Shown here piece after piece: positions 16,153 through 44,902 of a stretch of 45,075 bases of DNA. The stretch is from contig CAIUAN010000010.1 of the NCBI GenBank assembly GCA_903897145.1, forward strand, positions 1 through 45,075, read 5' to 3'. The notes beneath the pieces are model-generated. The model saw only the letters and a list, made by a program, of their open reading frames with translations. It made no database searches and was not told the DNA's origin. Position 1 is the stretch's first letter; every line of letters begins with the position of its first letter. The stretch comes from an uncultured Bacteroidia bacterium (GTDB lineage Bacteria > Bacteroidota > Bacteroidia > Bacteroidales > Prolixibacteraceae). Position numbers and translations under genes: made by a program.

Positions 16153-16818
16153 ATGTCAATAGTGTCTACCGCTTCTTCGTACTACTTAAACTTTAAAATC
16201 TGGAAATTACTAGCAACTCTTTTTGGGTTCACTGCACTTTTGGTGTTCACATTTAATGAACTCTTTGTCACCGAAAAACTATACTATCAATCGTTTGGGG
16301 AACAGATCGCTGCTGAGAGAATTGCAAACATGATTGCTACCTCTCAACATTGGCAATGGGTTGGTTATATCCTTGCATCCGCAATTACCCTTATTCGCGT
16401 AGCCTTTACTGCTTCTTGTCTTTATGTTGGTTGCGCCTTGCTGGAATATAAAATCAATTTTCGTGACCTATTTAAGATCTCAATTCTTGCTGATTTTGTC
16501 TTTGTCGCATCCGCAATTGTAAAGCTTGCTGTACTTATCTTTTTTAAAACAGTTAACAATCTCGAGGACTTGCAGTTTCAGCCATTCTCGCTGCTCGAAA
16601 TCTTCGATCGATCAAAAGTTCAGGTTTACCTAGTTTACCTCTATTCGGTAATCAATCTCTTCGAAATTGCCTATTGGGGAGTTTTAGCTTGGCTACTCAC
16701 ACAAATACTTGAAAGACCATTTGTTAAAACATTCCAAACGGTTCTATATTCGTATGTGCCTGGTCTAATGCTCTGGATATTATTTGCTATGTTCATAACA
16801 CTGAACCTGTCCACATGA
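16153..16818 (+). CDS. Polytopic membrane protein, unknown
   Basis: A 221-residue protein with about five membrane helices (near residues 15-37, 73-95, 112-135, 160-182 and 195-218). No family is recognised, although the layout recalls Yip1-like membrane proteins. Its last 4 bases (ATGA) overlap the start of the thioredoxin-like gene, so the two are translationally coupled, placing it firmly in the peptide export operon. A role in export or self-protection is inferred. Confidence 0.65.
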   Translation: MSIVSTASSYYLNFKIWKLLATLFGFTALLVFTFNELFVTEKLYYQSFGEQIAAERIANMIATSQHWQWVGYILASAITLIRVAFTASCLYVGCALLEYKINFRDLFKISILADFVFVASAIVKLAVLIFFKTVNNLEDLQFQPFSLLEIFDRSKVQVYLVYLYSVINLFEIAYWGVLAWLLTQILERPFVKTFQTVLYSYVPGLMLWILFAMFITLNLST

Positions 16819-17339
16819 GATTGATTATCAGGGTTGGTTTAGGGTTGCTAATCATTAGTGTTAGCATTTGGCTCTTGAGTTCTATCATTAAAGGTGCTGA
16901 ACACAAAAAAAAGATCGAGCAATCCATCCTAACCCTTAATCATTATGCTTTTCAAACCTTAGATGGTCGTTATCTATATCTCGATGAATTTAATCCGCGG
17001 CAACAAACGATAATCTTCTACTTTCATCCCGAATGCGAACATTGTCAGTATGAAGCGAAGGAGATTGGAAGGCACGCTGTTGAACTAGCCACAACGAATA
17101 TGATTCTAATTACTCCAGATGACTCAATCCGCAGGGTTGAAGACTTTGCATACACCTATAAGTTGTTCGCTGTTGATAACTTAACCATGTTCTTAGATCG
17201 AAACCATCGCTTTCAAACCTATTTTGGAAGTTCTGCTTTCCCATCAATATTGATCTATACGAAAGAAAAAAATCTGCTTCGACACTATAAAGGTGAAATT
17301 AAGATGGAAACAATCCTTAATTCTTTAGCATTAAAATGA
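16815..17339 (+). CDS. Membrane-anchored thioredoxin-like (TlpA-type) protein
   Basis: A 174-residue protein with one N-terminal membrane anchor (about 5-24) and a periplasmic thioredoxin fold. The redox motif is C74-E-H-C77 in HPECEHCQYE, and the cis-proline side is SAFPSILIY. Such proteins reduce, form or shuffle disulfides. The start overlaps the preceding gene by ATGA and the stop overlaps the ABC exporter start by ATGA, so the three are coupled. Since the peptide precursor has two cysteines, action on that peptide or on the exporter is a reasonable inference. Confidence 0.85.
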   Translation: MRLIIRVGLGLLIISVSIWLLSSIIKGAEHKKKIEQSILTLNHYAFQTLDGRYLYLDEFNPRQQTIIFYFHPECEHCQYEAKEIGRHAVELATTNMILITPDDSIRRVEDFAYTYKLFAVDNLTMFLDRNHRFQTYFGSSAFPSILIYTKEKNLLRHYKGEIKMETILNSLALK

Positions 17340-19525: not shown

Positions 19526-19590
19526 ATGAGCGAAATAGCTGCACTGCTAAACATTTGGCCCTGCCCAGTTGTTTTTGTTCAAAAAAGAGA

Positions 19591-20241
19591 ATGAATTCAC
19601 CCAACAACACAACACTCGAGATTGACGAACTAAATACCTGGGAACTGCGCAAAAGAGCGCAGCTTATTAATTCATTAGGCGGCTTTAAAAGCGTCTGCCT
19701 TATAGGGACTCAGAATAAGGAACACCAGACTAATTTGGCCATCTTTAACTCGGTAATCCACCTGGGAGCAAACCCACCACTGATCGGTTTTATCCAGCGT
19801 CCCGACACCGCCGAGCGCCATACCCTATCCAATATCCTGGAAACTGGATACTATACCATTAACCATCTGAACGAACAAATCTATCGGCAGGCTCACCAAA
19901 CATCGGCCCGCTACCCAAATGAAATTTCTGAATTCGACGTGACGAACTTAAAGCCTGAATATAAAAATAACTTCTTTGCCCCTTTTGTCGCTCAAAGCCA
20001 TGTGCAGATCGGAGTTCAATTTAAGGAGCGGATTAATATCGCCCTGAATAACACTATTCTAATGATCGGCGAGATTAAAATGATCTCCTTTCCCAATGAG
20101 TGCCTAAGCTCAGATGGATTTCTTGATATCGAAAAAGCACAATCTATTACCTGCAGCGGACTGGATAGTTATCATAAAACAGTGCGCCTGTCCAGATTGT
20201 CCTACGCTAAACCCGATACCACTCCGCATGATATCGACTAA
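19591..20241 (+). CDS. Flavin reductase-like (FMN-binding split barrel) protein
   Basis: About 216 residues from the ATG at 19591. The fold is the FMN-binding split barrel of the flavin reductase family, with segments LINSLGGFKSVCLIGTQN, then HLGANPPLIGFIQRP and GYYTINHL. Such proteins reduce flavins or use bound FMN in redox reactions; the partner is unknown. It follows the exporter by 65 bases on the same strand but has a different composition, so it may not belong to the peptide operon. A longer frame from 19555 begins with TTG and adds a cysteine-rich, non-conserved stretch, and is rejected. Confidence 0.85.
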   Translation: MNSPNNTTLEIDELNTWELRKRAQLINSLGGFKSVCLIGTQNKEHQTNLAIFNSVIHLGANPPLIGFIQRPDTAERHTLSNILETGYYTINHLNEQIYRQAHQTSARYPNEISEFDVTNLKPEYKNNFFAPFVAQSHVQIGVQFKERINIALNNTILMIGEIKMISFPNECLSSDGFLDIEKAQSITCSGLDSYHKTVRLSRLSYAKPDTTPHDID

Positions 20242-20431: not shown

Positions 20432-21328
20432 TTGAAAATCGAAATCAACGAACTGAATAAGGTTTATCCCAATGGTAATCATGCACTGAAAGATGTTACC
20501 ATGACCATCGAGAATGGGATGTTTGGTCTCTTAGGCCCCAATGGAGCCGGGAAATCAAGCCTCATGCGAATTCTAGTAACTCTGGCAAAACCTTCCTCGG
20601 GCCAGATACTCGTAAATGGCCTCGATCTGCAGAAGAATCGAAAAGAGGTGCGTACCATGCTCGGATACCTGCCTCAAGATTTCCGCTTCTTTGCGAAACT
20701 ACGCACCTACGAGTTTTTGGATTATATCGCTCGTCTATCGGGTATGAACCAGGGCTCTGTGCGTAAAGATGCCATTGAGAAAATGCTCGAAGAAGTGGGA
20801 CTTTACGAGGCTCGAAATCGCTTTGCCAATGATCTCTCAGGAGGTATGAAACGTCGATTGGGTATCGCACAGGCACTTATCGGGGAACCACAGATTATTA
20901 TTGTCGATGAACCAACTACGGGCCTTGATCCTGAAGAGCGAATTCGATTTAGAAATTTATTGACTCGTATCAGCGAGCGTGACGTGGTTATCATCTTATC
21001 AACCCATATCGTTGGTGACATCTCAAGTACATGCACCGATATGGCACTCATGAATAAAGGCGTTTTGGCCTTTAAAGGATCACCAGAGCTATTGATCAAT
21101 CAAGCCAAAGGTAATGTTTGGCGTATAAACGCAACCGCAACGGAATATTACGAAATTCAAGATAAGTTCCCGATAATCTCATCTATCCCATCGGAGGAGG
21201 GCTGGGAAGTTCAAGTGGTAGCCAAAACGATCGATGGCTATAAAGGGGAACAGATTGATCCTAACCTTGAGCATGCTTACGTAAACTTCATGGAACATGA
21301 ACTTAATCAACACTGGCATGAGATCTAA
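20432..21328 (+). CDS. ABC transporter ATP-binding protein (first gene of ABC/RND operon)
   Basis: A 298-residue ATPase of the ABC-2 (CcmA/NodI-like) type. Walker A is GPNGAGKS at residues 35-42, the Q-loop YLPQDF, signature DLSGGMKRRLGIAQ, Walker B IIIVDEPTTGLD and the switch histidine in LSTHIV. The start is TTG at 20432: it gives the usual KIEINELNKVYPNG beginning and no ATG lies close by. It should energise the permease encoded 57 bases downstream. It is strikingly similar to the ATPase fused to the second RND protein of the same operon, sharing ERIRFRNLL and STHIxxDISSxC. Confidence 0.93.
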   Translation: MKIEINELNKVYPNGNHALKDVTMTIENGMFGLLGPNGAGKSSLMRILVTLAKPSSGQILVNGLDLQKNRKEVRTMLGYLPQDFRFFAKLRTYEFLDYIARLSGMNQGSVRKDAIEKMLEEVGLYEARNRFANDLSGGMKRRLGIAQALIGEPQIIIVDEPTTGLDPEERIRFRNLLTRISERDVVIILSTHIVGDISSTCTDMALMNKGVLAFKGSPELLINQAKGNVWRINATATEYYEIQDKFPIISSIPSEEGWEVQVVAKTIDGYKGEQIDPNLEHAYVNFMEHELNQHWHEI

Positions 21329-21385
21329 TCAACTGGTTTTGCTGCCTTATGCCTTTTCCTCATCTGACCTTATACTCGACTAGCT

Positions 21386-24300
21386 ATGAAAGCAATTCAT
21401 AATATTTTAACAGTCTCTAAATACGAGTCAAAGACGCTGTTTAGAAGTTGGTTCTTTCGAATCTTCTCTATATTGGCGCTGATCTTTGTCTTTGTGTTTA
21501 ACCTCTTTACCCAGACAAGTATTGGATGGCCCATGGGTGATATGGTCGCACTTCCCGCCATGGTCCCTTTTGTCAATCTTTACATCATCAATATTGCACA
21601 GGCAATTATTGCAGTATTCCTGGCCTCCGACTTCTTAAAAAGAGATAAGAAACTAGATACCACGGAGGTTATTTATATGCGTTCGATGACCAATGCCGAC
21701 TACGTCATCGGTAAAACAATTGGAAATGTATGGGTGTTTTTCATGCTCAATTTTGTGGCCCTAGCAATGGTCGCAATTTTTAATGTCAGCTCTATATTTA
21801 GTCATTTTTCTCCGGCGCCTTATCTTTATTATTTCCTTTTGATAAGCTTGCCAACGCTGATTTTTATTCTTGGATTTTCGTTTTTCTTGATGTCTATAAT
21901 TAAAAATCAGGCAGTTACATTTGTGATCCTACTGGGGTATATTGCGGCAACACTCTTTTATCTTCAGAATGTTTATCATTATCTGTTTGATTACATGGCC
22001 TTTCATTTGCCAATGACCTTCTCTGATTTTGTTGGCTTTGGATCGTTGAACGAAATCTTAATTCATCGTGGGATATATCTATTTCTTGGCTTAGGATTTA
22101 TTTGTCTAACTATCTTACTTCTGCAACGTCTGCCTCAATCGACATTTGTTCGTAAGGTTACAATGGTCGCCAGCGTGGTATTTCTTTCTCTCGGTATTGG
22201 TTTAGGAGTTAAATATATCAACAAGATAAACAGCTACGATGCTCATCGTATTGAGATGTTAGCCTTAAATAACAACTATGCAAATAGCGCCAATGTCGAA
22301 ATTAAGAAGTGCGATTTAGTGCTTGAGCATGCTGGGGAACAAATCAAAACAGAAGCGACACTTACTTTGACCAATCCTTCTGTTGATCCATTAGCGAGCT
22401 TTGTCCTCACGCTAAATCCTGGATTGACAATTACGTCATTCAGTGGTGCTAATTACACCAGAGATCTTCAGATTCTAAAGATTACCCCAAATACACCTAT
22501 GCAGAAGGGTGAGGAGCTAACGCTGAAAATTAGCTACCAGGGGGATATTGATGAATCGTTCTGTTATTTGGATCTGAATCGCGAACGTCTTGATCTTTGG
22601 TTGCAGCGTGGCAATGGTATTGCCGATAAGAAACATGCTTTTGTCAGATCCGATTATTTGTTGCTTACCCCCGAGACACGCTGGTATCCGACCGCTGGCA
22701 TAAGTTATTCGACCAAGGGTTTGAAATGGCAGACGATGCAATTTATTGATTTTCATCTCCGCGTGAAAACTCGCAATGGACTTAAAGCAATCTCGCAGGG
22801 AAAAATAACCGATGATGGTAATGGATCCTTCGACTTCGCCCCTGAGCATAAAATGCCTCAGATGTCTTTAGCGATAGGAAAGTACGAATCTCGTTCAATT
22901 GTTGTCGATAAGATCAACTACAGCTTGAATTTTCTTAAAGGTCATAATACGTTTGATCCATTTTTTACAATTTTAAAGGACTCGATAAAACCCGTTATTC
23001 GCGATTTGCGAAAATCTTGGGAAGCCAAGGTTCGCTTTACATATCCTTACGAACGCTTGACCCTGGTCGAGATACCCGTACAGTTTTGTTCGTTTAGCCA
23101 TGTTTGGACGGGCGCTGGAGAGCAGGTTCAGCCTGAGACGGTCTATTTGCCTGAAGGTGGATTTAAACTGCCAAGTACGAATTTTGCTGAACAAAAAAAG
23201 ATTTCTGAGCGCTTCGGAGGTTATGATAATCAAACTATTAGTCCGAAGGAGACCGAGGAGAACTATTTCAAGCGTTTTGTAAATGATGTTTTATTAAGCA
23301 GTAAGACTTCTCCATCAAGGATGGGTATGGGTGGACCTGGGATTCATATTGGCTCCTATACTCCAGCTCAGGAAGAACTTAATCCGTATTTTATTTTTCC
23401 AAATTATTATACATACCTGACGTATATCAAATCAGATCAATATCCGATTGTTAATAGAGCCATTGAGTCATATCTATCTAAAGCAGCTACCGAGACAGGC
23501 AGTTCATTCATGCGAAGTTTTACTGGTCTTTCCGAAATTGAAAAGGGAAATATTGCGTTGCAGGATGCTTCCTTTGCCGAGATCTTAGATAAACAAGCCG
23601 ATCCTGATATCGTCAATAATGTCATCTTAACTAAGAGTGGTTTCTTATTCGCTTTAATGAAAGGGGCTGTTGGGCCAGATAAATTTGATGAGTTTATTCA
23701 CCGTTATATTGATCAGAAAAAATTTGAGTCTACATCTGTGGATATTTTGAATGATCAACTTAAAAACTCTTTTAGTCTAGATCTTAATCAGTACTTACCC
23801 ACCTGGTATAGCTCAAAGTCATTACCAGGCTATGTTGTTACGCATATCACCTCTGCAAAGCTTAAAAAAGATGACCAGATTAAAACAATGGTCTCCTTTG
23901 TAATTACGAATACAGAGAATGATCCTGGTGCAGTCTCGGTGACTTTCCGCATGGGTAGTAGCGGTAGAGGAGGCTTCAGAAGACGAGGCGGTGCTGGAAG
24001 TCCAGATGACAACATTGAAAAGACTGTTCTTATTGGGGGGAAAGTATCAAGAAAGATCACCTATCTTTTCAACCGCGAACCTCGTTCTATAACCGTTAAT
24101 ACTTTTGCTTCTCATAATATTCCTTCAAGTATCACGCAGCAGTTTGGGAAGATTGATATCGATGAGACCTTGCAAGCAGTAGATGACGATCAGGTAGTTG
24201 CCTATACCGAAGGTGTGGAGGCCAATGAAATTATTTGTGATAATGAAGATCGTGGATTTAAACTTAGTCAGCCAAAATCAAATAGCTTGATACAACGTTT

Positions 24301-24793
24301 GTTGATTCCTTCTGACGCGGATGGTTCTGGCGTTCTTCGTTCATCAGGAGCGAATGGGAAAAGTGAACAGGAGATCAAGTATAAAGGTTTGCTATTCTGG
24401 AATCCGCCAGTAGAATGGACTCTGACAACCAACGAGCAATTTTATGGGAAACAAATTCGCTCGGCTTATTACCTGAAGGGTGGAACAGGCGATCGTAAGG
24501 TGACTTGGAACGTGCCCGTGAAAGTTCCAGGGTATTATAAAGTATCTGCTTATTTGCCTAAGATAAGGTCTGGATGGGGTCGTGAAGAGCGTTTGGATGA
24601 AGATTATCATTTTACCATCTTCCATGACGATGGACAGGATCATCAAACTATTGAGATGAAAAATAACGATTCTGGTTGGATTGAGATCGGATCATACCAT
24701 CTATCTCCCGATTCCATTAAGATTGAATTATCTAATCTCACGAAGGCTCGCGCAATCTATGCCGATGCCGTTAAACTGGTTAAAATAAATTAA
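21386..24793 (+). CDS. ABC-2 permease fused to M1-peptidase-like and golvesin-like domains
   Basis: A 1135-residue protein. Residues 1-285 form an ABC-2 type membrane domain with about six to seven helices (20-40, 60-80, 110-135, 145-170, 175-195, 230-250, 258-276). From about 290 to 830 lies a periplasmic region resembling M1 aminopeptidases (beta-saddle, then helical part), but no HExxH zinc motif is present, so peptidase activity is not expected. A Gly/Arg-rich stretch (GSSGRGGFRRRGGAGS) follows near 855-875. The last 130 residues, with KVTWNVPVKVPGYYKVSAYL, resemble golvesin/carbohydrate-binding-like domains. The permease should pair with the ATPase upstream; the large periplasmic arm may contact the TolC-adaptor system encoded next, 16 bases downstream. 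The transported substrate is unknown. Confidence 0.8.
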   Translation: MKAIHNILTVSKYESKTLFRSWFFRIFSILALIFVFVFNLFTQTSIGWPMGDMVALPAMVPFVNLYIINIAQAIIAVFLASDFLKRDKKLDTTEVIYMRSMTNADYVIGKTIGNVWVFFMLNFVALAMVAIFNVSSIFSHFSPAPYLYYFLLISLPTLIFILGFSFFLMSIIKNQAVTFVILLGYIAATLFYLQNVYHYLFDYMAFHLPMTFSDFVGFGSLNEILIHRGIYLFLGLGFICLTILLLQRLPQSTFVRKVTMVASVVFLSLGIGLGVKYINKINSYDAHRIEMLALNNNYANSANVEIKKCDLVLEHAGEQIKTEATLTLTNPSVDPLASFVLTLNPGLTITSFSGANYTRDLQILKITPNTPMQKGEELTLKISYQGDIDESFCYLDLNRERLDLWLQRGNGIADKKHAFVRSDYLLLTPETRWYPTAGISYSTKGLKWQTMQFIDFHLRVKTRNGLKAISQGKITDDGNGSFDFAPEHKMPQMSLAIGKYESRSIVVDKINYSLNFLKGHNTFDPFFTILKDSIKPVIRDLRKSWEAKVRFTYPYERLTLVEIPVQFCSFSHVWTGAGEQVQPETVYLPEGGFKLPSTNFAEQKKISERFGGYDNQTISPKETEENYFKRFVNDVLLSSKTSPSRMGMGGPGIHIGSYTPAQEELNPYFIFPNYYTYLTYIKSDQYPIVNRAIESYLSKAATETGSSFMRSFTGLSEIEKGNIALQDASFAEILDKQADPDIVNNVILTKSGFLFALMKGAVGPDKFDEFIHRYIDQKKFESTSVDILNDQLKNSFSLDLNQYLPTWYSSKSLPGYVVTHITSAKLKKDDQIKTMVSFVITNTENDPGAVSVTFRMGSSGRGGFRRRGGAGSPDDNIEKTVLIGGKVSRKITYLFNREPRSITVNTFASHNIPSSITQQFGKIDIDETLQAVDDDQVVAYTEGVEANEIICDNEDRGFKLSQPKSNSLIQRLLIPSDADGSGVLRSSGANGKSEQEIKYKGLLFWNPPVEWTLTTNEQFYGKQIRSAYYLKGGTGDRKVTWNVPVKVPGYYKVSAYLPKIRSGWGREERLDEDYHFTIFHDDGQDHQTIEMKNNDSGWIEIGSYHLSPDSIKIELSNLTKARAIYADAVKLVKIN

Positions 24794-24809
24794 TAGAATA
24801 CATCATACT

Positions 24810-26303
24810 ATGAAGAATCATAAATTTATTCTCCTCTGCCTATTGACCTTCGTATTTAGTCAGGTCAGTGCGCAGTCGATCATTACCCTCGAGCAAGCAC
24901 TTGACTTGGCAGGTCAGAGCAGTCCGAGTTTGCAAAGTTCAATTTATAACCTTGAACGGACTACTGAATCATTAAATGCCCAGCGTGCTGCGTTAAAATC
25001 TCAGTTCTCCTTGAATGTTAATCCATTGGATTATAGCAATAGTCGTAAGTTCGATACCCGGCTTTCACAGTGGTTTACCAACAAGAGCACTGCATCATCA
25101 GGAACATTTCAAGTCGATCAGCCAATTTTGTTAACGGATGGAAAGATCTCACTAATGAACCAATTTGGTTGGCAGTCAAATTCTTCTGAAATTTCCGGTA
25201 TTACAAATGAGAACAAGGCCTTTTTTAATAACCTAAATCTAAGTCTTACACAGCCTTTGTTTACCTATAACAGAACGAAGATGGGAATTAAGAATGTAGA
25301 GTTGGATAATGAAAATGCAATGCTTAGCTATGCGATGCAGCGTTTGACATTGGAGAAAAATGTCTCTCAATTCTTCTACAATGTGTACCTCGCTCAAATG
25401 AGTCTGACAATCAAACAAGAAGAGCTAGTCAATACCGAGAAGAGTCACGAGATCATAAAAAATAAGGTTGAGGCTGGCCTTTCAGCAAAAGAAGAACTCT
25501 ATCAGTCGGAAGTTAACTTGTCGACATCGAAGTCTGGTGTTGAATCGGCTAGGGTGACTTTGGAGAGTGCGAAGGATCAGTTCAAACAATATATTGGAAT
25601 GGATATTTCAAAAGAGATTTCAGTGATGACTGATGTATCCGTAACTCCAATTGTGGTAGATGGAAAGAAAGCTTTGGCGCATGGTTTGGCCTCACGTATG
25701 GAGCTTCGTCAGCGTCAGATCGATGTAGAGACTTCTCAATTTGACTTGATTACTGTTAAAGCATCCAATGAGTTTAGAGGTGATATGGTTTTGTCGATGG
25801 GTCTTTCTGGTGACGATCCAACACTGACAAATATCTTTGACCGTTCGACAAAAAGTCCACATATTAGTCTAGGATTTAATATTCCAATTTTTGATTGGGG
25901 CCAGCGTAAGGCAAGAATAAAAGCGCAAGAGGCAGTAATCAATTCACAGAAGTTAAATCTTACGAATCAACAAACTCAGATACAGATAGATATCAGACAA
26001 GTAGTTCGAAATCTAAGCAACCTAAAAAACCAAATTGAGATAGCACTTCAAAATCAGAAAAATTCTCAGCTTACCTATGACATCAACTTGGAGCGTTATA
26101 AGAATGGTGATTTGACAAGTATGGATCTTAACCTTTTTCAAGTTCAATTGTCCGATAAGAAGATGGGTTATGCACAATCTTTGATCAATTATAAAGTTGA
26201 ATTATTAAACCTAAAGATTCAATCTTTGTTTGATTTTACAACCAATGAGGCCATTGTGCCAGAGAAATTTATACGTGATTTTCAGTCAGGAATTATAAAA
26301 TAG
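24810..26303 (+). CDS. TolC-family outer membrane efflux protein
   Basis: A 497-residue protein with a signal peptide (1-21, ending QVSA-Q). It has two repeats of long alpha-helical hairpins plus beta segments as in TolC/OprM (OEP domains, roughly 30-250 and 260-470), for example TLEQALDLAGQSSPSLQSS at the start and the repeat near LNLTNQQTQIQIDIRQVVR. It forms the trimeric outer membrane duct of a tripartite pump. There is no lipobox. Spacing of 16 bases to the permease and 21 to the adaptor shows operon membership. Confidence 0.92.
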   Translation: MKNHKFILLCLLTFVFSQVSAQSIITLEQALDLAGQSSPSLQSSIYNLERTTESLNAQRAALKSQFSLNVNPLDYSNSRKFDTRLSQWFTNKSTASSGTFQVDQPILLTDGKISLMNQFGWQSNSSEISGITNENKAFFNNLNLSLTQPLFTYNRTKMGIKNVELDNENAMLSYAMQRLTLEKNVSQFFYNVYLAQMSLTIKQEELVNTEKSHEIIKNKVEAGLSAKEELYQSEVNLSTSKSGVESARVTLESAKDQFKQYIGMDISKEISVMTDVSVTPIVVDGKKALAHGLASRMELRQRQIDVETSQFDLITVKASNEFRGDMVLSMGLSGDDPTLTNIFDRSTKSPHISLGFNIPIFDWGQRKARIKAQEAVINSQKLNLTNQQTQIQIDIRQVVRNLSNLKNQIEIALQNQKNSQLTYDINLERYKNGDLTSMDLNLFQVQLSDKKMGYAQSLINYKVELLNLKIQSLFDFTTNEAIVPEKFIRDFQSGIIK

Positions 26304-26324
26304 TCAATTAAAAAATATAAGATT

Positions 26325-27392
26325 ATGAATTTTAATTTATCAATAAGCAACAAATGGATCTTAGCAGCATTGATTCCAGTGCTAGCTTCATGCGCCAATC
26401 AAGGAAGTCAAGTTAGCAATGAGTTGGCAATCCCTGTCTCGGTAGCTGATGTGGTGAAGAAGCCAATTGTGCAATTTATTAGTACGACTGGAACTGCCAC
26501 TGCCGCAAGCCAAACAACCTTAAATACCGAAATGGCAGGCATCTATATGCTTGGGAAAAATCCGCGTACTGGGGCAGATTTTAAACTTGGTGATATCGTC
26601 GAAAAGGGTCAAGTTATTATTCGCTTAGAGAACCCTGAAACAGCCAATTCAATTGCGATCAAGACGAAGAAATTAAATCTTGATATCTCTGAACTGGAAA
26701 ATCAAAAGCAAAAGTCACTTTACGAAAAAGGTGGAGTAACCTTGCGTGAGATGAAAAATTCTGAAGTGGCTTTGGCTCAAGCAAATACTGATTTTGAGAA
26801 TGCTAGAATCCAATTGGCTAAAATGGAGATCATTGCACCTTTTAAGGGCGCAATCGTTGACTTGCCTCAAGTTACCAACGGAACTCAGGTGGTTTCAAAC
26901 GCGCCTGCAGTAACTCTTATGGATTATAGCAAACTTTATATGGAGATCAATCTTCCTGAGAAAAATATCGTATCGGTGCATGCTGGTCAAGATGTGGCTA
27001 TCACAAATTATACGTTGCCTAAGGATACTCTTAAAGCTAAGATTAATGAGTTGTCTCCAGTTGTGAGCACCGAGACCCGCACTTTCAAAGGTAAACTGAT
27101 CATTGAAAATTCAGAACTTAAACTGCGTCCAGGGATGTTCGTTAAGGCAGATATTGAAGTGGCTCGTCGCGATAGCGCAATTGTTATCTCAAAAGATATT
27201 ATCGTTTCGGGTAACCGCGGTAAAACAGTTTACGTTGTTGAGAAAGGTGCTGTAAGAGAACGTATCCTAACCGTAGGATTAGAGAATGAGACTTCCGTTG
27301 AAGTCATCGAAGGGCTAAAAGTTAATGAACGGGTAGTTACCAAAGGTTTCGAAACGTTACGTAGCAATTCTAAGGTTAAGATTATCAATTAA
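26325..27392 (+). CDS. RND efflux periplasmic adaptor (membrane fusion lipoprotein)
   Basis: A 355-residue HlyD/AcrA-type adaptor. The signal peptide ends in the lipobox LASC (C23), so it is lipid-anchored. Order: beta-barrel and lipoyl halves starting about 40 (TTGTATAASQTTLNTEMAG), a short helical hairpin (about 110-165), the second lipoyl half with APFKGAIVDLPQVTNGTQV (about 170-190), then the barrel with LRPGMFVKADIEV (about 265) and the membrane-proximal domain. It links the RND permeases encoded next to the TolC protein encoded before. The hairpin is short compared with AcrA. Confidence 0.93.
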   Translation: MNFNLSISNKWILAALIPVLASCANQGSQVSNELAIPVSVADVVKKPIVQFISTTGTATAASQTTLNTEMAGIYMLGKNPRTGADFKLGDIVEKGQVIIRLENPETANSIAIKTKKLNLDISELENQKQKSLYEKGGVTLREMKNSEVALAQANTDFENARIQLAKMEIIAPFKGAIVDLPQVTNGTQVVSNAPAVTLMDYSKLYMEINLPEKNIVSVHAGQDVAITNYTLPKDTLKAKINELSPVVSTETRTFKGKLIIENSELKLRPGMFVKADIEVARRDSAIVISKDIIVSGNRGKTVYVVEKGAVRERILTVGLENETSVEVIEGLKVNERVVTKGFETLRSNSKVKIIN

Positions 27393-27442
27393 TCATAACT
27401 AGTCGAATACATTACTTATAACATAATACTAAATTTTTTCGA

Positions 27443-30400
27443 GTGAAAAAACTGACCTCTTTTGCAGTTAATTACCCAGTAACCGTGCTAATGGCGATCA
27501 TGGGGATCTTGCTCCTCGGGGTGATCTCTTATCAGAAATTGGGGATCGATCTTTTTCCAGACCTGACCTCTCCACGTATTTTTGTAGAGATAAAATCGGG
27601 TGAGAGACCACCTGAAGAGATGGAGAAAATGTTTATCGAGAAAATCGAGGCGGTGGCAATTCGACAAAGTAACGTGCTGGAAGTCTCTTCTATATCCCGC
27701 ACTGGATCTGCTCAGATCACTGTCGAATATGCCTGGAATAAAGATATGAACGAAGCATTTCTAGACCTTCAAAAAGCCTTGACTTCCTTCTCTCAGAATA
27801 CCCTTATTGACGCCTTGACGATTACGCAGCTCGACCCAAATACGCAGCCAGTACTCATCGTAGGTCTATCGCATGAGACGATCACCGACATGAATGAGCT
27901 TCGAAAAGTAGCTACTAACTATGTTCGGAATGAGTTGGTTCGATTGGAAGGTATTGCTGACGTGGAACTTTCAGGCATCGAAGAGAGCGAAGTGCGCATC
28001 GACACTGATCCGTATAAGTTAGAAGCCTTTAATATTACCGTCGATCAGCTTTCACAAAAGATTCAAGCCTACAATAGAAGTATTTCAGGTGGCACAATAA
28101 CAGAGACAGGGTTGCAATATGTGGTTAAAGGGGTAAGCCTGCTTCAGCAAAAAGCCGACTTCGAAAATTTAATCATCGGGTATCAATCTCCTGTCTTAGG
28201 CAGCACTACCGCTCAGAAGACGGCAACTTTTCTGCGCGATGTAGCTACTGTAAGTTTTGCCAATAAAGATCCAATTAATATCGTTCGAATCAATGGTGTA
28301 CGGTGTTTGGCCTTGGCGATCTATAAAGAGACACGATACAATACCGTTAAAGCGGTTGATGATATCCAAAAAGCACTCGTTAATATCACCAAAGCACTTC
28401 CCGGATATAAATTTACCGTGGTTACCAACCAAGGAACATTTATTCGGACTGCCATCGACGAGGTTCAAAACACCATGGTTATAGGTGTTCTATTGGCTAT
28501 TTTAGTGTTATTTATCTTCCTTCGTAAGATTGGAACGACCTTAATTGTGAGTCTTGCCATACCGATCTCGATTATTGCAACTTTCAATCTGATGTATTTC
28601 AATCATCTGACTTTGAATATCATGACGCTTGGCGGACTTGCGCTGGGGGCCGGGATGTTAGTCGATAATGCGATTGTCGTGATGGAGAATATTTTCAGAA
28701 ATCATGAATTGGGTATGTCAGCCAAGGAGGCTGCAATCGTTGGAACGGCTGAAGTGGGTGGCGCAATTACCTCCTCTACATTAACCTCGATCGTTGTTTT
28801 CTTGCCTATTGTATATATTCACGGGGCTTCGGGAGAACTTTTTAAAGATCAAGCTTGGACCGTTGCTTTTTCCCATTTCTCTTCCCTATTTGTGGCGATG
28901 TTCTTAATCCCAATGCTGTATCATCAATTCTTTAAGAATAAAGGGATACAGGCGCCTAAAGGATCGAAATTCGCTGGTTATGGTAATTTCATCACAAGAA
29001 TACTTCCTCATCGTTGGGTGATCACGATCATATCTCTTGTTCTAATGGGCTTATCCTTCTTATTAATCCCTTATATTGGATCAGAATTTATGCCTAAGAC
29101 TGACAGCAAGGAATTTACTATAAACGTTAAGATGGCAGAAGGAACTTCGCTTCAGCGCACTTCTACCGCTATTGGATCAGTGGAGAACATGATTAAAGAG
29201 CTTTTAGGAGACGATATTCAAGCTGTTTATTCAAAAATTGGACCTTCTACCGGAACAACTACTTCTGCTGCGTCTGTTTATGAAGGGGAAAATACAGCTC
29301 AGATCAAGGTGATTCTAAAGCCGACTGGAAAATATGTGGCGTCTCAGGTTACTGAGGCTATTGCAAAATGGTATGCAGCAAATCCGCAGTTTCAAGTCAC
29401 CTTTACTCAAGACGAAACGGCCTTGCAAAGTATTCTAGGTACGCAGGAGGCTCCTATGGTTATTGAGGTAAAAGGGACCGATCTAAACGAAATAAAGAAA
29501 GTTGTAAAACAGGTAGAAGCTTCTGCGAAAGAGATTCCTGGATTGTACAATATTCAAACCAATATGGAAGGCGGCTATCCTGAGATCAATGTGCAAGTCG
29601 ATCGGTTTAGAGCAGGTTTATATAATCTGGCTGTAACGGATGTCGTTAATCAAGTAACCGCAAAATTAAAAGGTGTCACCGCTGGGCAGATGGATAAAAA
29701 TGGTGAATTGCAAGACATCACCATTCATGTTCCCAAAATTGGTGTCGCAGCGTTGGGTGATATGATCATTAAAAATGGCACTTCTGTGATTCGTCTATAT
29801 GAAGTGGCCAAATTGAATGAAGCATTGGCGCCAACAGAGATTTATCGCAGAAATCAAAGTCGTATTGGTAAGGTGATGGCTGAGCTCGATAAAGGAAAGG
29901 CATTAGATAAGGTTGTTGCGGAGGTACAAGCTAAAATAGCTCCAATTGCATTGCCTGCCGACTATTCCATTAAGGTTGCTGGAGAAGAGCAAAAACGACA
30001 AGAGTCGATGTCGAATCTTAAATTTGCACTGCTTCTTTCTATCGTGCTGGTATATATGGTTTTAGCAAGCCAGTTTGAGTCGCTAATTCACCCATTAATC
30101 GTCTTGTTGACGATCCCATTTGCTATTGTGGGTACAATTATTCTGTTCTTTATTATGGGACAGACCTTTAATATGATGGCTTTGATCGGAATTATTATGC
30201 TAGGGGGTATAGCCGTCAACGACTCCATCATACTCATAGATCGGATTAATCAGCTTCGGATGACGGGCATGGATAAGAAATTAGCTATTGCTTTAGGTAG
30301 TCAGCAGCGTCTTCGTCCAATATTGATGACCAGTATCATTACCGTTATTGCACTTCTACCCTTAACATTTGGATTTGGAGCAAGCGCTTCATTACGTTCT

Positions 30401-30517
30401 CCAATGGCTTATGCCGTGATCGGTGGGATGATCACAAGTACTCTGTTGACATTGCTCGTGATACCTTGTGTCTATGATCTTATGACTTCAAATAAACCGC
30501 TCAAACAAGAGGATTAG
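27443..30517 (+). CDS. RND efflux permease (HAE1/AcrB-like)
   Basis: A 1024-residue RND permease with 12 membrane helices in two halves, each with a large periplasmic loop. It starts at GTG, 50 bases after the adaptor; the beginning KKLTSFAVNYPVTVLMAIMG is typical. The helix 4 proton-relay region reads GAGMLVDNAIVVMENI with D408-N409, where AcrB has a DD pair. Helix 10 contains GGIAVNDSIILIDRIN. It should use the proton gradient to push substrates into the adaptor/TolC duct. Hydrophobic-amphiphilic drugs, bile components or lipids are possible substrates, not decided by sequence. Confidence 0.93.
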   Translation: MKKLTSFAVNYPVTVLMAIMGILLLGVISYQKLGIDLFPDLTSPRIFVEIKSGERPPEEMEKMFIEKIEAVAIRQSNVLEVSSISRTGSAQITVEYAWNKDMNEAFLDLQKALTSFSQNTLIDALTITQLDPNTQPVLIVGLSHETITDMNELRKVATNYVRNELVRLEGIADVELSGIEESEVRIDTDPYKLEAFNITVDQLSQKIQAYNRSISGGTITETGLQYVVKGVSLLQQKADFENLIIGYQSPVLGSTTAQKTATFLRDVATVSFANKDPINIVRINGVRCLALAIYKETRYNTVKAVDDIQKALVNITKALPGYKFTVVTNQGTFIRTAIDEVQNTMVIGVLLAILVLFIFLRKIGTTLIVSLAIPISIIATFNLMYFNHLTLNIMTLGGLALGAGMLVDNAIVVMENIFRNHELGMSAKEAAIVGTAEVGGAITSSTLTSIVVFLPIVYIHGASGELFKDQAWTVAFSHFSSLFVAMFLIPMLYHQFFKNKGIQAPKGSKFAGYGNFITRILPHRWVITIISLVLMGLSFLLIPYIGSEFMPKTDSKEFTINVKMAEGTSLQRTSTAIGSVENMIKELLGDDIQAVYSKIGPSTGTTTSAASVYEGENTAQIKVILKPTGKYVASQVTEAIAKWYAANPQFQVTFTQDETALQSILGTQEAPMVIEVKGTDLNEIKKVVKQVEASAKEIPGLYNIQTNMEGGYPEINVQVDRFRAGLYNLAVTDVVNQVTAKLKGVTAGQMDKNGELQDITIHVPKIGVAALGDMIIKNGTSVIRLYEVAKLNEALAPTEIYRRNQSRIGKVMAELDKGKALDKVVAEVQAKIAPIALPADYSIKVAGEEQKRQESMSNLKFALLLSIVLVYMVLASQFESLIHPLIVLLTIPFAIVGTIILFFIMGQTFNMMALIGIIMLGGIAVNDSIILIDRINQLRMTGMDKKLAIALGSQQRLRPILMTSIITVIALLPLTFGFGASASLRSPMAYAVIGGMITSTLLTLLVIPCVYDLMTSNKPLKQED

Positions 30518-30580
30518 TCCAAAATTAGAATGGTAGAAAATAAGACACAATTGAACAATGAAACTCCGAAAAGATAGCTT

Positions 30581-33500
30581 ATGAATTCTATAATAAATAG
30601 AAAAGTTCTGATTAGCATGCTCTTTTTCGGATTAAGCATGATGGGTTATTTCTCCTGGAAAAATCTCTCCATGGAGCTATTCCCAAATGCAGAACTTCCG
30701 ATGCTTTATGTTCAGGTTTCTAGCCAGCTAGAAGTTGATCCCAAATATATGGAGAGCCAAGCCATTGTGCCTCTCGAAGGGGCTATTGGAACGCTGCAAG
30801 GGATTGAGAATATGGAGTCGACAGCCCAGTCCAGACAGGGTTCTATCATGGTCGAATTCAATAAAAATATCAACTTTAAATATACCTATCTTAAAGTTCA
30901 AGAGAAAGTTGATGAGATAAAAGCATCACTGCCTGAGCAGTTTAAGGTTACCGTGGTTAAGGTCGACCTTAATCAGATGAAAAACCAGTTTATGCAACTG
31001 CAGGTACTGGGGAGTGGTGGTGTCGACCGGGTGCGTAACATTACCGATCTTAAAATTAAGACTGAGCTCGAGAATGTAAATGGGATTGCGGGTGTTAACG
31101 TATTTGGAGGCCGGGAGAAATCCGTTGAGATACAGCTCGACATGAACGTTTGTGAGGCTTACAAAATTACGGCCGCTACGATTCGGAATAAGATCACTCA
31201 AAATTATAAGGCTAGAGCTTTTACAGGTAATGTTTACGAGTCGAATAGGCAGTATTTTGTGCAGGTTACATCTGAATACGATGATCTAAAAGAGATTAGT
31301 AATCTTATTATCGCACCTGGACCAATCTTGCTGAAGGATGTCGCGAAGGTCTATTTTGGAACGAAAGAAGAAACTTCCTATTCGCGAGTGAATGGTAAGA
31401 ATTCAGTTTCTATAACCTTGGTTAATGATGCACAGTCAAACCTGATTGAACTTTCTCATAATACATTGGCTACCATTGCTCGGCTGAACAAAGATCTAGC
31501 TTCAAAAGACGTTCAGATCAAGGTTCAGAACAATGCCGCCGATACGATGGAGAAGAATCTGAACCAGATAGGGGAGCTGGCTTTGGTGGGCGGAATACTT
31601 GCAATTGTGGTTCTCTGGATCTTCTTGAAGAATTTTCAACTGGTATCAATCATTGCCTTAGCAATACCTATATCCGTCCTGACAGCATTTAATGTATTCT
31701 TCGGTGCAAACATCTCAATTAATAGCTTAACCTTGGTTGGAATGGCTCTTGCCGTTGGTATGCTGCTCGATAATAGTGTGGTAGTTCTGGAGAATATTTA
31801 TCGGCTCAGAGGGATCGGTCTCTCTCCGCGTGACTCAGTTATTCAAGGAACTACTGAGGTTTGGAGATCCGTTTTTGCCTCCACCTTAACCACGATCACC
31901 GTTTTCTTGCCTTTTATTTTTTCAGATAATTTCTTGATTACCCTGATAGGCAAAAATGTGGGTGTATCCATTATTTCAACCCTTACTATTTCCCTTTTTG
32001 TGGCCATGCTTCTGGTCCCGATGATGGCTTATTCATTTCTTCGAAAGGAAAATAGTAAGAAGTTAAGCTTTAACGTCGTCTCTACTCGGAATAAGTTGGT
32101 GCAGGCTTATGTTATGCTGATGAAATATTCGTTGCGTAAACCTGCCCAGACTATCATAGGAGTCTTACTCTTCTTCTTTATCTCGATCTTCCTATGTCTT
32201 GCCGTTAGTATGAATAATCTGACACAGGTTGAGACAAAAGCTTTCAGTATTAGTGTAACCATGCCTGTCGGATCAACAATCGAAGCGACAGACAAAATTG
32301 TTTCTCAGATCGAAGGTCGAATCGATTCTTTGAAAGAAAAGGAAGATGTTACAAGCAATATTCAATTGGCCAATGCAACTGTCAACGTGTTGCTAAAAGA
32401 GAACTTTAATAAGATTAGCAAAAGGACGATTGCCCAAATACGTGATGATGTTAGGTCTCGTGTGGAGGATGTCTCTGGCGCTATTATTGATATTTCGGAT
32501 GCTTCTGAGACAACTGCAAGCACTGGATCAGGTGGCGGTGGTGGCAGCGGAGGTCGTCAGACTAGTACTGGCTCCGGAAACATGATGAAGCTGCTAGGCG
32601 TAGGGGCTAATCAAGAGAGGATCTTGATTAAAGGCCAGGATTTTGATGTGATGAAGAATGTGGCCAGTGATCTCCAATATTACCTCGAGTCATTAGAGTC
32701 GATGAGTCGTGTAAGGGTTAGCTATTCTGATAACAGACCTGAAGTACATCTTCGTTTTCATCCCTTGACGATGAGTGAAAACAATGTTGCTTTAGGAAAT
32801 ATTTCTGGAGAGCTTAACTCATTTAATAAAGAGACCAATACAAATATTAAGTTCAAAGTAGGAACCGATGAGTACGATATTTTGATCAAAGAGCTTCCTA
32901 AACTCGGCACGACACTTGAGCAACAGAAAAAACCGCGAACTATCTATGAGCTTCGTAATCTTCCAATTCCTGATTCTAAAGGGGGACTGCATGAGCTTCA
33001 GAGTATCAGTGAAATTATTTATTCCTCTGGTGCGGCAAATATTACACGGGTTAATCGCGAAAAACAAATTGAAGTCTCCTACTCTTTTGTTGCAGCTGCG
33101 CAGGATTCAAAAGACCTCTTGACCTCCTATCGGGCCGATGTCGATAAGGTTGTGGAAGGGTATAAACTGCCTGCTGGGGTCGCCGTTCAGGTGCTTCATG
33201 AGGAAGATCCCTTAAAGGATTTCTATTTCCTGATCCTAGCAGCTTTTATTCTGATTTTTATGATTTTGGCCTCGGTGTTTGAATCGATCTCCACACCATT
33301 CGTGCTGATGTTCTCTATTCCATTGGCCGCAATTGGATCCTTTGTTGCACTAATTGTAACCCACAACTCGCTATTTAGCGCAAATACGTTAATTGGATTT
33401 ATCATTCTAATCGGAATTGTGGTCAATAATGGAATTATCCTGATTGACTACACCAATATCTTACGCAAAAGAGGTTTTCGCATGGAGAGAGCCTTGATCT

Positions 33501-35338
33501 TGGCCGGTATGTCCCGAATTCGTCCAATCTTAATCACCGCAATTGTTACTGTCATAGCGATGTTCCCATTAGCCATGGGTGATAACGAATATGTAGGCGC
33601 CATCGGTGCTCCATTTGCAATCACCGTTATTGGCGGATTGAGCATGAGTACCTTACTGACCCTGATATTTATTCCAACCTTCTATTTCGGTCTTGAAAAT
33701 GCCATTAATTGGATGAAAGGCCTTTCGCTTCGAACACGAATCATCCAAGGAGTTGTTGCGTTGTTGGGGATCTATCTGATTTATGCCCGTGTTGATTCGT
33801 TCTTATGGCAGATGCTCGATATGATCGCTTTAATTTTAGTTATTCCTGGCACTACCTGGTTTGTTAACAATAGTTTGCGCAAAGCCAAAGTATCTGTTGT
33901 CGATCCAAATGAACCGATTCAGATTCGGGTGCAAAATTTGGTGAAGATCTACAATTGGGGTGGACGTTTTAAACGTGAATGGATTGGGAACACCCGGATT
34001 CGCGAAAGAGCTGGTCAGGTGAAATATTACAAGAGCTGGCGCGATTTTGATGATTTTATCTGGCAAGTGCCTATCTTAGGTTTCTTGTTCTATTTTACTT
34101 TTGGGTATCTTCAAAATGGACTGTTTATGTTCCTTTTGTCTCATATCATTTTCTTCTTGTCGCTGTATCTTTGGGGACCTATCCGTCAATATCTTGACTA
34201 TAAAGGCGAACGAGACGGCATGAGTAGGCCATCAAGAGTCGGAAAAATGGGTTTTTTATTTATCTATTGGATTCTTCCATTGATCATGCTAATTCTCCTT
34301 TATCTGGCATGGACTTCGATTGGTTCTGTTGCTATGATTGGTATCTTGTGGTACTTCGCCCTGGCTGTTAATCAGACTGCTGAGATGCTCTATGTGCAGA
34401 ATGTCAATATCGAACGGCTTCAAGGTCGATTTGCTGGTTCACGCCGGATGTTCTTTAAACTTGTTGAGCAGATGCCAATTATTGGTCGTAAGAGAGATGC
34501 TTTCAAAGCTTTAAAAGGCGTTTCACTTCAGATAGATACCGGAATGATTGGGTTGTTAGGACCCAATGGCGCTGGCAAATCAACTATGATGCGAATTATC
34601 TGTGGTATTTATGAGCAGAGCTATGGGAAGGTTTGGATTAATGGGATCGATACACAAGAAAAACGTGAAGAGCTTCAAGGTCTTATTGGTTATTTGCCTC
34701 AGGAATTTGGGTCGTATGAGAATATGTCAGCTTATGAATATTTAGATTACCAAGCATTGCTTAAAGGGCTTACAAATCCTGTTGAGCGCGCCACTCGAAT
34801 CGAATATGTTCTTTCGTCAGTCCATCTTTGGAATCGCAAGGATGATAAGATTGGCGGGTTCTCTGGTGGTATGAAGCAACGAATAGGAATTGCTCAGATC
34901 TTACTTCATCTCCCACGTATACTTGTTGTCGATGAACCTACGGCAGGTCTGGATCCTCGTGAACGGATTCGATTTAGAAACCTTCTCGTTGAGCTAAGCC
35001 GCGAACGTGTCGTGATCTTCTCGACCCATATTATTGAAGATATCTCTAGTTCATGTAATCAGGTGGCTGTTGTGAATAGAGGTCAACTGCACTACGCAGG
35101 AAACCCAGGTGATATGGTTAAGTTGGCTGAAGGTCTAGTCTGGCAATATACCATTCCTGCTAAGGAATTTGATTCATTCCCAGCGAAAGATCGCGTGGTT
35201 CATCATTCGCGTGAGGGTGATCTAATCAAATTACGGTTCTTATCTGCTGAGAAACCTTCTGCTGAAGCTGTCTTGGTGAAGCCGGTACTTGAGGAAGCTT
35301 ATTTGTGCTTGCTTAAAGGGATTAAAGTGACCATTTAA
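30581..35338 (+). CDS. RND permease fused to an ABC ATPase (single 1585-residue protein)
   Basis: Residues 1-1040 are a complete RND permease: first helix near 8-25, helix 4 motif GMLLDNSVVVLENI with D397-N398, second half with GIVVNNGIILIDYTN. A Gly/Ser-rich insertion (about 644-667) lies in the second periplasmic loop. Residues about 1050-1290 add several membrane helices and a cytoplasmic stretch. Residues about 1300-1585 are a full ABC ATPase: Walker A GPNGAGKS from 1327, Q-loop YLPQEF, signature FSGGMKQRIGIAQ, Walker B ILVVDEPTAGLD, switch His in FSTHII. One uninterrupted frame covers all parts; no internal stop or frameshift is seen. The ABC part is a paralogue of the ATPase at 20432. 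The small permease 13 bases downstream could be its ABC partner. Confidence 0.9.
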   Translation: MNSIINRKVLISMLFFGLSMMGYFSWKNLSMELFPNAELPMLYVQVSSQLEVDPKYMESQAIVPLEGAIGTLQGIENMESTAQSRQGSIMVEFNKNINFKYTYLKVQEKVDEIKASLPEQFKVTVVKVDLNQMKNQFMQLQVLGSGGVDRVRNITDLKIKTELENVNGIAGVNVFGGREKSVEIQLDMNVCEAYKITAATIRNKITQNYKARAFTGNVYESNRQYFVQVTSEYDDLKEISNLIIAPGPILLKDVAKVYFGTKEETSYSRVNGKNSVSITLVNDAQSNLIELSHNTLATIARLNKDLASKDVQIKVQNNAADTMEKNLNQIGELALVGGILAIVVLWIFLKNFQLVSIIALAIPISVLTAFNVFFGANISINSLTLVGMALAVGMLLDNSVVVLENIYRLRGIGLSPRDSVIQGTTEVWRSVFASTLTTITVFLPFIFSDNFLITLIGKNVGVSIISTLTISLFVAMLLVPMMAYSFLRKENSKKLSFNVVSTRNKLVQAYVMLMKYSLRKPAQTIIGVLLFFFISIFLCLAVSMNNLTQVETKAFSISVTMPVGSTIEATDKIVSQIEGRIDSLKEKEDVTSNIQLANATVNVLLKENFNKISKRTIAQIRDDVRSRVEDVSGAIIDISDASETTASTGSGGGGGSGGRQTSTGSGNMMKLLGVGANQERILIKGQDFDVMKNVASDLQYYLESLESMSRVRVSYSDNRPEVHLRFHPLTMSENNVALGNISGELNSFNKETNTNIKFKVGTDEYDILIKELPKLGTTLEQQKKPRTIYELRNLPIPDSKGGLHELQSISEIIYSSGAANITRVNREKQIEVSYSFVAAAQDSKDLLTSYRADVDKVVEGYKLPAGVAVQVLHEEDPLKDFYFLILAAFILIFMILASVFESISTPFVLMFSIPLAAIGSFVALIVTHNSLFSANTLIGFIILIGIVVNNGIILIDYTNILRKRGFRMERALILAGMSRIRPILITAIVTVIAMFPLAMGDNEYVGAIGAPFAITVIGGLSMSTLLTLIFIPTFYFGLENAINWMKGLSLRTRIIQGVVALLGIYLIYARVDSFLWQMLDMIALILVIPGTTWFVNNSLRKAKVSVVDPNEPIQIRVQNLVKIYNWGGRFKREWIGNTRIRERAGQVKYYKSWRDFDDFIWQVPILGFLFYFTFGYLQNGLFMFLLSHIIFFLSLYLWGPIRQYLDYKGERDGMSRPSRVGKMGFLFIYWILPLIMLILLYLAWTSIGSVAMIGILWYFALAVNQTAEMLYVQNVNIERLQGRFAGSRRMFFKLVEQMPIIGRKRDAFKALKGVSLQIDTGMIGLLGPNGAGKSTMMRIICGIYEQSYGKVWINGIDTQEKREELQGLIGYLPQEFGSYENMSAYEYLDYQALLKGLTNPVERATRIEYVLSSVHLWNRKDDKIGGFSGGMKQRIGIAQILLHLPRILVVDEPTAGLDPRERIRFRNLLVELSRERVVIFSTHIIEDISSSCNQVAVVNRGQLHYAGNPGDMVKLAEGLVWQYTIPAKEFDSFPAKDRVVHHSREGDLIKLRFLSAEKPSAEAVLVKPVLEEAYLCLLKGIKVTI

Positions 35339-35351
35339 AAGTAAAAAAAGG

Positions 35352-36095
35352 ATGAATAAATCTTTTCAAATCATATCAAAAGAGAGCAAAACATATTTCT
35401 GGATCGACCTGATTCGGAAGATGGCTAAATATAATCTAAAAATTATTTTTGCTGGTCGGTTTATCTGGTTTGTTATAGCTGCGCTATTTTTCTTTTTGCT
35501 CTTATCTGTCAATTTAGTTTTTAATGTGCAGGGTTACGACTCTTCCAATGTTTATGGGATCTTAATCTTTCCTGGAATACTGCTGGTTTTTTATCCTACT
35601 GTCTTTGGTATACAGAGTGATGCCGATAATCGAATTCTGGAGATCTTATTTGGTATTCCCAACTATCGTTATAAGGTATGGCTTGTTAGATTGGTGATGA
35701 TCTTTTTACTCACCTGGTTCTTCCTATATCTCTTTTGTTGGGTAGGCTATTTTGGATTAATTCCATTCCCAGTTTTTGAGATGTCGTGGCAGCTTATGTT
35801 TCCTGTCTTATTCTTGGGCTCCTGTGCATTTTTAGTTTCTACCATGGTGAAGAATGGGAATGGCACTGCAGTGGTCATGATTATTATTGGGGTTTTACTC
35901 ATGATGTTTAGTGATTCGCTGAACCGAACACAGTGGAATGTGTTTCATAATCCATATACCATTCCAGGTAATATGAATGAGATGATCTGGTCACAGATCT
36001 CTCAGAAAAGCAGACTTTTCCTTGCTATCTCAAGTGTGGTATTCTTCTTGGGTGGAATGACTAATCTACAACAACGGGAGAAATTTCTGAAATAA
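35352..36095 (+). CDS. ABC-2-like permease, last gene of the ABC/RND operon
   Basis: A 247-residue membrane protein with about six helices (near 37-58, 70-90, 113-135, 142-165, 172-190 and 218-236). The layout, including SDADNRILEILFGIPNYRYKVWLVRLV as a coupling-helix region between helices 2 and 3, fits ABC-2 type permeases. It starts 13 bases after the RND-ABC fusion gene and so probably provides the transmembrane partner for the fused ATPase. No periplasmic extension is present, unlike the permease at 21386. Convergent with trpS. Confidence 0.75.
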   Translation: MNKSFQIISKESKTYFWIDLIRKMAKYNLKIIFAGRFIWFVIAALFFFLLLSVNLVFNVQGYDSSNVYGILIFPGILLVFYPTVFGIQSDADNRILEILFGIPNYRYKVWLVRLVMIFLLTWFFLYLFCWVGYFGLIPFPVFEMSWQLMFPVLFLGSCAFLVSTMVKNGNGTAVVMIIIGVLLMMFSDSLNRTQWNVFHNPYTIPGNMNEMIWSQISQKSRLFLAISSVVFFLGGMTNLQQREKFLK

Positions 36096-44831: not shown

Positions 44832-44902
44832 CAACGTTTGGGTTGACAGTTTTATTCAGCCGTTATTAACGTGAAGAGTTCTGTTAAAAAGATGATAATT
44901 AT

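Follow-up and report, generated by a model that had tools for sequence, protein, structure and literature searches.

Introduction

An ATP-binding cassette (ABC) transporter requires two ATPases and two membrane halves. In PMC8277102, tripartite exporters are described by their inner-membrane engine, which belongs to the ABC, resistance–nodulation–division (RND) or major facilitator superfamily (MFS) type, and mixed RND trimers such as MdtBC are called rare. Here, we analyse a stretch of 45,075 nucleotides (the window) from an uncultured Bacteroidia bacterium of the Prolixibacteraceae (GenBank assembly GCA_903897145.1, contig CAIUAN010000010.1) and in it an operon of seven genes, A–G, that combines ABC and RND components with an adaptor and a TolC-type channel. 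One of its genes, F, encodes an RND permease fused to an ABC ATPase.

We consider it probable, judging from sequence, that A–G form one envelope-spanning export machine with two motors, in which an ABC-2 transporter would be held to an RND trimer through F. That this represents a new exporter class, a double-motor machine with a covalent link in which one substrate would be moved in successive steps by ATP and by the proton gradient, is in our judgement an evenly balanced proposition. No description of the RND–ABC fusion or of the A–G operon was found, judging by titles and the openings of abstracts, in searches of an open-access library whose coverage leaves out most subscription journals, so novelty is unproven.

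Gene order and distribution

Gene content and gene order are read directly from the sequence, as are the fusion, the conserved motifs and the joint occurrence described below. The seven open reading frames (ORFs) all lie on the + strand between 20432 and 36095 (Table 1), with gaps of 57, 16, 21, 50, 63 and 13 bases from A to G, exactly as in the original prediction of seven co-oriented genes spaced by 13–63 bases. Relatives were collected in a set of 82 loci, comprising 61 from a scan of named genome contigs, 20 stretches from other genomes and the window itself. The scan gave 62 loci, of which one (L090; unrelated, with an ABC match only, 27%) was dropped before synteny was counted, and is a lower bound because shared short peptides were required. 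At least two of the A–G genes are present in 81 of the 82 loci and all seven in 16, and the order is rearranged in none. Four further stretches, two with all seven genes in the same order and two cut by a contig or stretch end, bring the total to 86 loci (18 with all seven genes, none rearranged), and this constant order supports the prediction that the ABC and RND genes belong to one unit. Genes absent from partial loci mostly fall past contig or stretch ends. Named-contig loci and the other stretches may share genomes, and L085 and L086 come from one metagenome-assembled genome (MAG). With starts chosen mechanically, the median gaps across loci are 13, 24.5, 19, 10, 27 and 15 bases, and 22 of 74 loci have overlapping F and G frames. 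In L096 no G is seen after F; a frame judged transposase-like by eye occupies that place, with short repeats inside.

Internal promoters or terminators had been named in the original prediction as signals that could split the unit. A scan of 19400–37200 returned no + strand terminator-like site between the genes and one weak + strand promoter-like match, in the A/B gap. Neither promoter-like (36 versus a mean of 44.5) nor terminator-like matches (8 versus 13.5) in this interval rise above shuffled sequence, and a Bacteroidota-type promoter pattern matches three times in the window, no more than expected by chance and never at the operon.

The genes also come and go together. Among 119 sampled genomes of the order, the RND part of F (at least 47% identity) is found in 15, and exactly these 15 also hold A (E ≤ 1e-85); 14 of them hold both B (E ≤ 1e-50) and E (E ≤ 1e-150), and the genome without B and E matches (G011) is 61% complete. 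None of the four genes reaches its threshold in the remaining 104 genomes, relative to the limited number of best candidates that was scored per genome. ABC and RND genes occurring mostly apart in relatives, the outcome that had been set out as fatal to the idea of a joint system, is thus not what is seen. The F orthologues in the 15 genomes are 47–61% identical over the RND part, and the next RND protein among the matches listed reaches at most 31%. With the F linker as query, 23 of 198 genomes of the order gave a match. The linker profile picked out seven of 345 genomes across the phylum, four with full-length fusions (own genome included) and three with weak matches (E of 9.5e-5 to 4.7e-4) that were left uncounted. 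B is strong in three of 295 genomes of the class (G000, G105 and G261), all of which hold F; a further 26 show weak matches that cover part of the membrane half, of the M1-like region or of the tip. The system is patchy, being present in about one in nine of the genomes sampled in the order and in few outside it. One genome carries a second copy of gene B with one internal stop codon (G088:C37:14331-17654).

By our own reading of contig titles, 59 of the 61 named-contig loci are from Bacteroidota or its subgroups, and two loci are from isolates, Labilibacter marinus and Plebeiobacterium marinum. The exceptions, L060 and L070, are MAG contigs labelled Actinomycetota and Calditrichota; both carry F and G, with F 56–60% identical to the nearest copies in other loci, and their placement may reflect mis-binning or transfer.

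The RND–ABC fusion

The F frame is complete in 65 of the 82 loci (1532–1633 residues), cut at an end in 14 and short for other reasons in three. In 11 of the 15 F-bearing genomes of the order F is one open frame of 1536–1640 residues, and in the other four (G014, G022, G088 and G011) it breaks off no more than 230 bases from where a contig ends. The window belongs to a draft genome of 69 contigs, which leaves room for the fusion to be a joining or annotation error; the recurrence of complete fusions in relatives, across many assemblies and in two isolates, rules out such an artefact for practical purposes, and we attach a negligible probability to it.

The same fusions bear on a second alternative, that the ABC-2 and RND parts are independent exporters of related substrates that share an operon, the fusion only equalising their amounts. 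Each half does have the parts of a known exporter kind, operons can group loosely linked functions, and no RND gene was found near the related ABC/M1 proteins (described below) in 31 loci with about 1.5 kb of flank read; these relatives may work without one. Such independence fits poorly with a gene order that is never rearranged, with the joint presence and absence of A, B, E and F in the material examined and with 65 complete fusions, and we regard it as improbable.

Two predicted membrane helices connect the RND part of F to the first strand of its ATPase, which carries the A-loop motif VKIY; the Val, Lys and Tyr of this motif are invariant in 65 of 65 complete proteins. Approximately 180 residues separate this strand from the rest of the ATPase. 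In an AlphaFold2 model of the F C-terminus (47 sequences; mean predicted local distance difference test score, pLDDT, of 73.3 and predicted template-modelling score, pTM, of 0.49), the insert appears as four long helices (model residues 117–140, 144–176, 180–208 and 211–235; block pLDDT 68–88) and the ATPase core has a block pLDDT of 65–88. The even number of helices after the RND part would keep the ATPase cytoplasmic. The best 50 Foldseek matches listed for this model are all ABC ATPases or transporters, including NosF and the ABCA family, and are informative for the ATPase core only because alignments that extend beyond it have root-mean-square deviations of about 17 or more.

Interpretation of the insert as a third ABC membrane half was rejected (profile matches of 0.1–0.9), as was an insert of fixed size. 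In one natural variant (L110) it is about 70 residues shorter, the difference overlapping the predicted helices. Open frames of 1443–1492 residues, which exceed the length of a plain permease, also encode other RND proteins in G064:C15, G089:C54 and G118:C68.

The ABC components

Both ATPases retain their catalytic residues. In A the Walker A Lys, Q-loop Gln, SGG motif, Walker B Asp, catalytic Glu, H-loop His and A-loop Tyr are invariant in 15 of 15 complete homologues, and they are likewise invariant in the F ATPase (65 of 65), where the A-loop Tyr is that of the VKIY motif. Motif counts throughout refer to complete ORFs above a length limit in the 82 loci (15 for A, 17 for B, 58 for C, 61 for D, 62 for E, 65 for F and 71 for G). 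Among the paralogues of A in the same genome, the F ATPase is the nearest (43% identity), and the next is at 37%.

B has six predicted helices within residues 1–285, and about 850 residues lie outside the membrane half, in what the original prediction called a giant periplasmic arm. By profile the arm matches solved M1 aminopeptidases (best 1.8e-4), and it ends in a region resembling a carbohydrate-binding module (CBM). Of 17 B proteins, 16 lack the HE..H zinc motif; the remaining one has HE..H near residue 884, beyond the M1-like match. With the zinc motif not in place, B as an active M1 peptidase was set aside. The tip matches xanthan lyase 6f2p by profile (2.4e-7), and 6f2p and the CBM6 structure 2cdp (CBM6/CBM35 folds) are among the Foldseek hits of a partly poor model of the arm (mean pLDDT 51; poor before its residue 466, approximately residue 750 of B). 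The model is poor because only partial relatives were usable, and only CBM-sized hits were read because whole-model scores were about 0.1 with many other folds represented.

The membrane halves and the arm have relatives in a family that we call ABC/M1, in which two transmembrane domains (TMD1 and TMD2) and an M1 domain are joined in one protein of about 1200 residues. Of 118 other genomes of the class, 28 carry this Bacteroidota family. HE..H is present in 25 of the 28 proteins, two of the three misses being truncated frames. All 31 loci examined have an ATPase gene no further than about 1.5 kb away, whose product aligns with A or F at 35–52% identity. Against profiles of this family (two short rows, L155 and L162, were dropped before alignment), the membrane half of B scores 98.7 with TMD2 and 95.6 with TMD1, and G matches TMD1 with a probability of 73 and TMD2 with 0.7. 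A tree of 77 ATPases was built from 25 of the 65 complete F proteins, all 15 A proteins, 29 of the ABC/M1 ATPases and eight outgroup paralogues, of which L205 and L207 are the same frame. In this tree the A, F and ABC/M1 ATPases form one group with support of 98/94 and each of the three is a clade; the grouping is support and not proof, because the outgroup branches are very long.

The operon thus holds exactly two ATPases and two six-helix membrane halves, which adds up to one full ABC transporter. Most likely, A pairs with the F ATPase and B with G, as one ABC-2 transporter split open. Two complete ABC modules bracketing the RND pump, as originally predicted, found no support: the parts, the profile comparisons and the ATPase tree all favour one transporter cut in two.

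The size and nature of the B arm bring in the main rival to an export machine, namely a mechanical role of ATP, in which the ABC part would carry no substrate and would move the arm to open, load or anchor the RND–adaptor–TolC assembly. NosDFY, whose NosF is among the ATPases nearest to that of F in the Foldseek search, uses ATP for work on the periplasmic side, as does MacB. PMC12646458 and PMC5985334 describe mechanotransmission by MacB-type ABC proteins. An arm of this length, M1-like but lacking the zinc motif and tipped by a carbohydrate-binding-like domain, would suit such a lever. However, the peptidase zinc motif in 25 of 28 ABC/M1 relatives with the same membrane halves suggests that substrate meets the arm there, and no MacB/FtsX-type Pfam match is present in B or G (E ≤ 0.01). 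We consider the mechanical role unlikely, if worth keeping in view, and continue with substrate export by a single machine.

The RND components and the proton relay

The best solved relative of both E (9lyq) and the RND part of F is MdtB, to which the relay positions were aligned by eye. The relay Asp on TM4 is invariant, in 62 of 62 E (Asp408) and 65 of 65 F proteins, and occupies the place of D407 in AcrB, whose full relay is D407/D408/K940. The second relay Asp is replaced by Asn in 54 of 62 E proteins (Asp in eight) and in 60 of 65 F proteins (Asp in one), and the place of the relay Lys is taken by Asn or Ser in 62 of 62 and 65 of 65, respectively. No complete homologue of E or F has the full Asp-Asp-Lys relay; in this they depart from MdtB and AcrB, and proton coupling may be altered. 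Taken with the invariant ATPase residues, the one conserved RND Asp makes both motors look live, with the usual RND relay altered.

E and F carry no curated NCBIfam name because their best RND scores (595 for E and 426 for F) fall below the cut-off of 1250; all 22 models listed for E, and the RND models among the best 25 for F, are below their curated cut-offs. D scores 177 bits with RND_mfp against a curated cut-off of 94.9, and a lipobox-like LASC can be read directly in its sequence.

Proposed mechanism

We infer the pairings, the mixed trimer, the stoichiometry, the direction of transport and the kind of substrate as follows. A would pair with the F ATPase, and B with G in the membrane, to make up a single ABC-2 transporter of asymmetric build, and E and the RND part of F would form a mixed RND trimer, like MdtB with MdtC. 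As part of both assemblies, F would hold the ABC transporter beside the RND trimer, and with one F per trimer (2E:1F) there would be exactly one ABC transporter per pump. ATP-dependent work on the inner side would extract or flip an amphiphilic substrate out of the inner membrane, the B arm (M1-like, without the zinc motif and with a glycan-binding-like tip) would guide it, and the proton-driven RND trimer would pass it via the adaptor D into the TolC channel C. As a new class of exporter, the machine would take its substrate from the cytoplasm or the inner leaflet to the outside. In that reading, which we hold to be about as likely as not, an ABC-2 transporter would have been split, with its halves set around the RND–adaptor–TolC pump and one ATPase joined to an RND subunit. 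The lipid or glycolipid suggested as substrate in the original prediction would be a guess, which the present results neither favour nor disfavour.

Several observations weigh against this proposal. G matches TMD1 moderately, and profile comparison gives no match between B and G (0.4). In the ATPase tree A and the F ATPase are not sisters, A grouping instead with the ABC/M1 ATPases, weakly (85/50). The C-terminus of F was modelled alone, with a pLDDT of 73 and a pTM of 0.49. Proton drive is uncertain, since the second Asp of the relay is mostly replaced and the Lys always. Contig ends do not account for the short F frames in L042 (125 N nearby), L065 (two N) and L084 (two N), nor for a short E frame in L029, where there is no N. 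Finally, the neighbouring genes in the 82 loci give no hint of a substrate.

If the proposal is correct, two engines in one polypeptide would cross the division of tripartite exporters into ABC, RND and MFS types, and the operon would provide a natural model for the hand-over of substrate from an inner-membrane transporter to an RND pump. Because only one of the two RND subunits carries an ATPase, it would also offer a concrete test of mixed RND trimers.

Neighbouring genes

A linked biosynthetic cluster was rejected: recurring neighbours reach at most 22 of the 82 loci, downstream only (the upstream side covered few loci), and look housekeeping-like by eye. Upstream of the operon the window contains an ABC exporter with a C39 peptidase, of the peptide-export type, and between it and gene A a flavin-reductase-like protein. 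Next to the exporter are an AhpC/TSA-like protein and two ORFs for which Pfam gave no match, and two tRNA genes are at the end of the window.

Table 1. Features of the A–G operon and its surroundings, in window coordinates (aa, amino-acid residues; NBD, nucleotide-binding domain)
Feature	Position	Strand	Match or basis
Gene A, ABC ATPase (NBD 1), 298 aa	20432..21328	+	ABC_tran 7.7e-32
Gene B, ABC-2 membrane half, M1-aminopeptidase-like periplasmic arm and C-terminal Golvesin_C, 1135 aa	21386..24793	+	Golvesin_C 5.4e-17; Peptidase_M1 sub-threshold (0.0025) (Pfam)
B tip, Golvesin_C / CBM6-CBM35-like, aa 1010-1132	24413..24781	+	PF25275 5.4e-17
Gene C, TolC-type outer membrane channel, 497 aa	24810..26303	+	OEP 1e-45
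Gene D, RND-type periplasmic adaptor, probable lipoprotein, 355 aa	26325..27392	+	HlyD_D23 3.4e-22; RND_mfp 4.2e-52
Gene E, RND permease, 1024 aa	27443..30517	+	ACR_tran 1.7e-210, aa 5-1013
Gene F, RND permease fused to ABC ATPase, 1585 aa	30581..35338	+	ACR_tran 1.9e-156, aa 3-1036; ABC_tran 3.9e-28, aa 1311-1455 (Pfam)
F linker, two predicted membrane helices, aa 1037-1114	33689..33922	+	Hydropathy; model helices 14-33 and 38-67
F ATPase first strand, A-loop motif VKIY, aa 1115-1125	33923..33955	+	Model strand 79-86
F insert within ATPase, four predicted membrane helices, about aa 1126-1305	33956..34495	+	Alignment; model
F ATPase remainder (NBD 2) and C-terminal tail	34496..35335	+	ABC_tran 3.9e-28
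Gene G, second ABC-2 membrane half, 247 aa	35352..36095	+	ABC2_membrane_3 sub-threshold, 6.7e-4
Stretch upstream of the C39-peptidase exporter	16815..17339 (upstream of the exporter)		
C39-peptidase ABC exporter	17336..19525		
Flavin-reductase-like protein	19555..20241		
tRNA-Ser(gct) and tRNA-Pro(tgg)	44745..44978		

Comparison with known systems

No full exporter of the ABC_membrane kind that characterizes type 1 secretion (HlyB type) was found in A–G by Pfam. MacAB-TolC resembles A–G in combining an ABC transporter with an adaptor and TolC, and differs in that B and G lack a MacB/FtsX-type match and that A–G includes an RND pump as well. The likeness to NosDFY lies in the ATPase of F, which is structurally near NosF, among other ABC ATPases. 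A and F also score on the GldA model of GldAFG, far below its cut-off (189.6 and 177.3, respectively, versus 402.6). To our knowledge, neither NosDFY nor GldAFG includes an RND pump.

On the RND side, A–G shows several features of an HAE-type pump, namely full-length ACR_tran matches, an adaptor and TolC alongside and the TM4 Asp. Like MdtABC-TolC, it has two adjacent RND genes with an adaptor and TolC. It differs from MdtABC-TolC in the relay, where most complete E and F homologues have lost the second Asp and all of them the Lys. F also adds an ABC ATPase and some six further predicted helices, and the remaining parts of an ABC-2 transporter are encoded in the operon.

On the ABC side, the ABC/M1 family is related to the membrane half and arm of B, to G and to both ATPases, which fall within one group with those of the family. 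There, both membrane halves reside in one TMD1-TMD2-M1 protein that usually retains the HEXXH motif; here, they are encoded by the separate genes G and B, the motif is missing or misplaced, and an RND pump stands between the halves.

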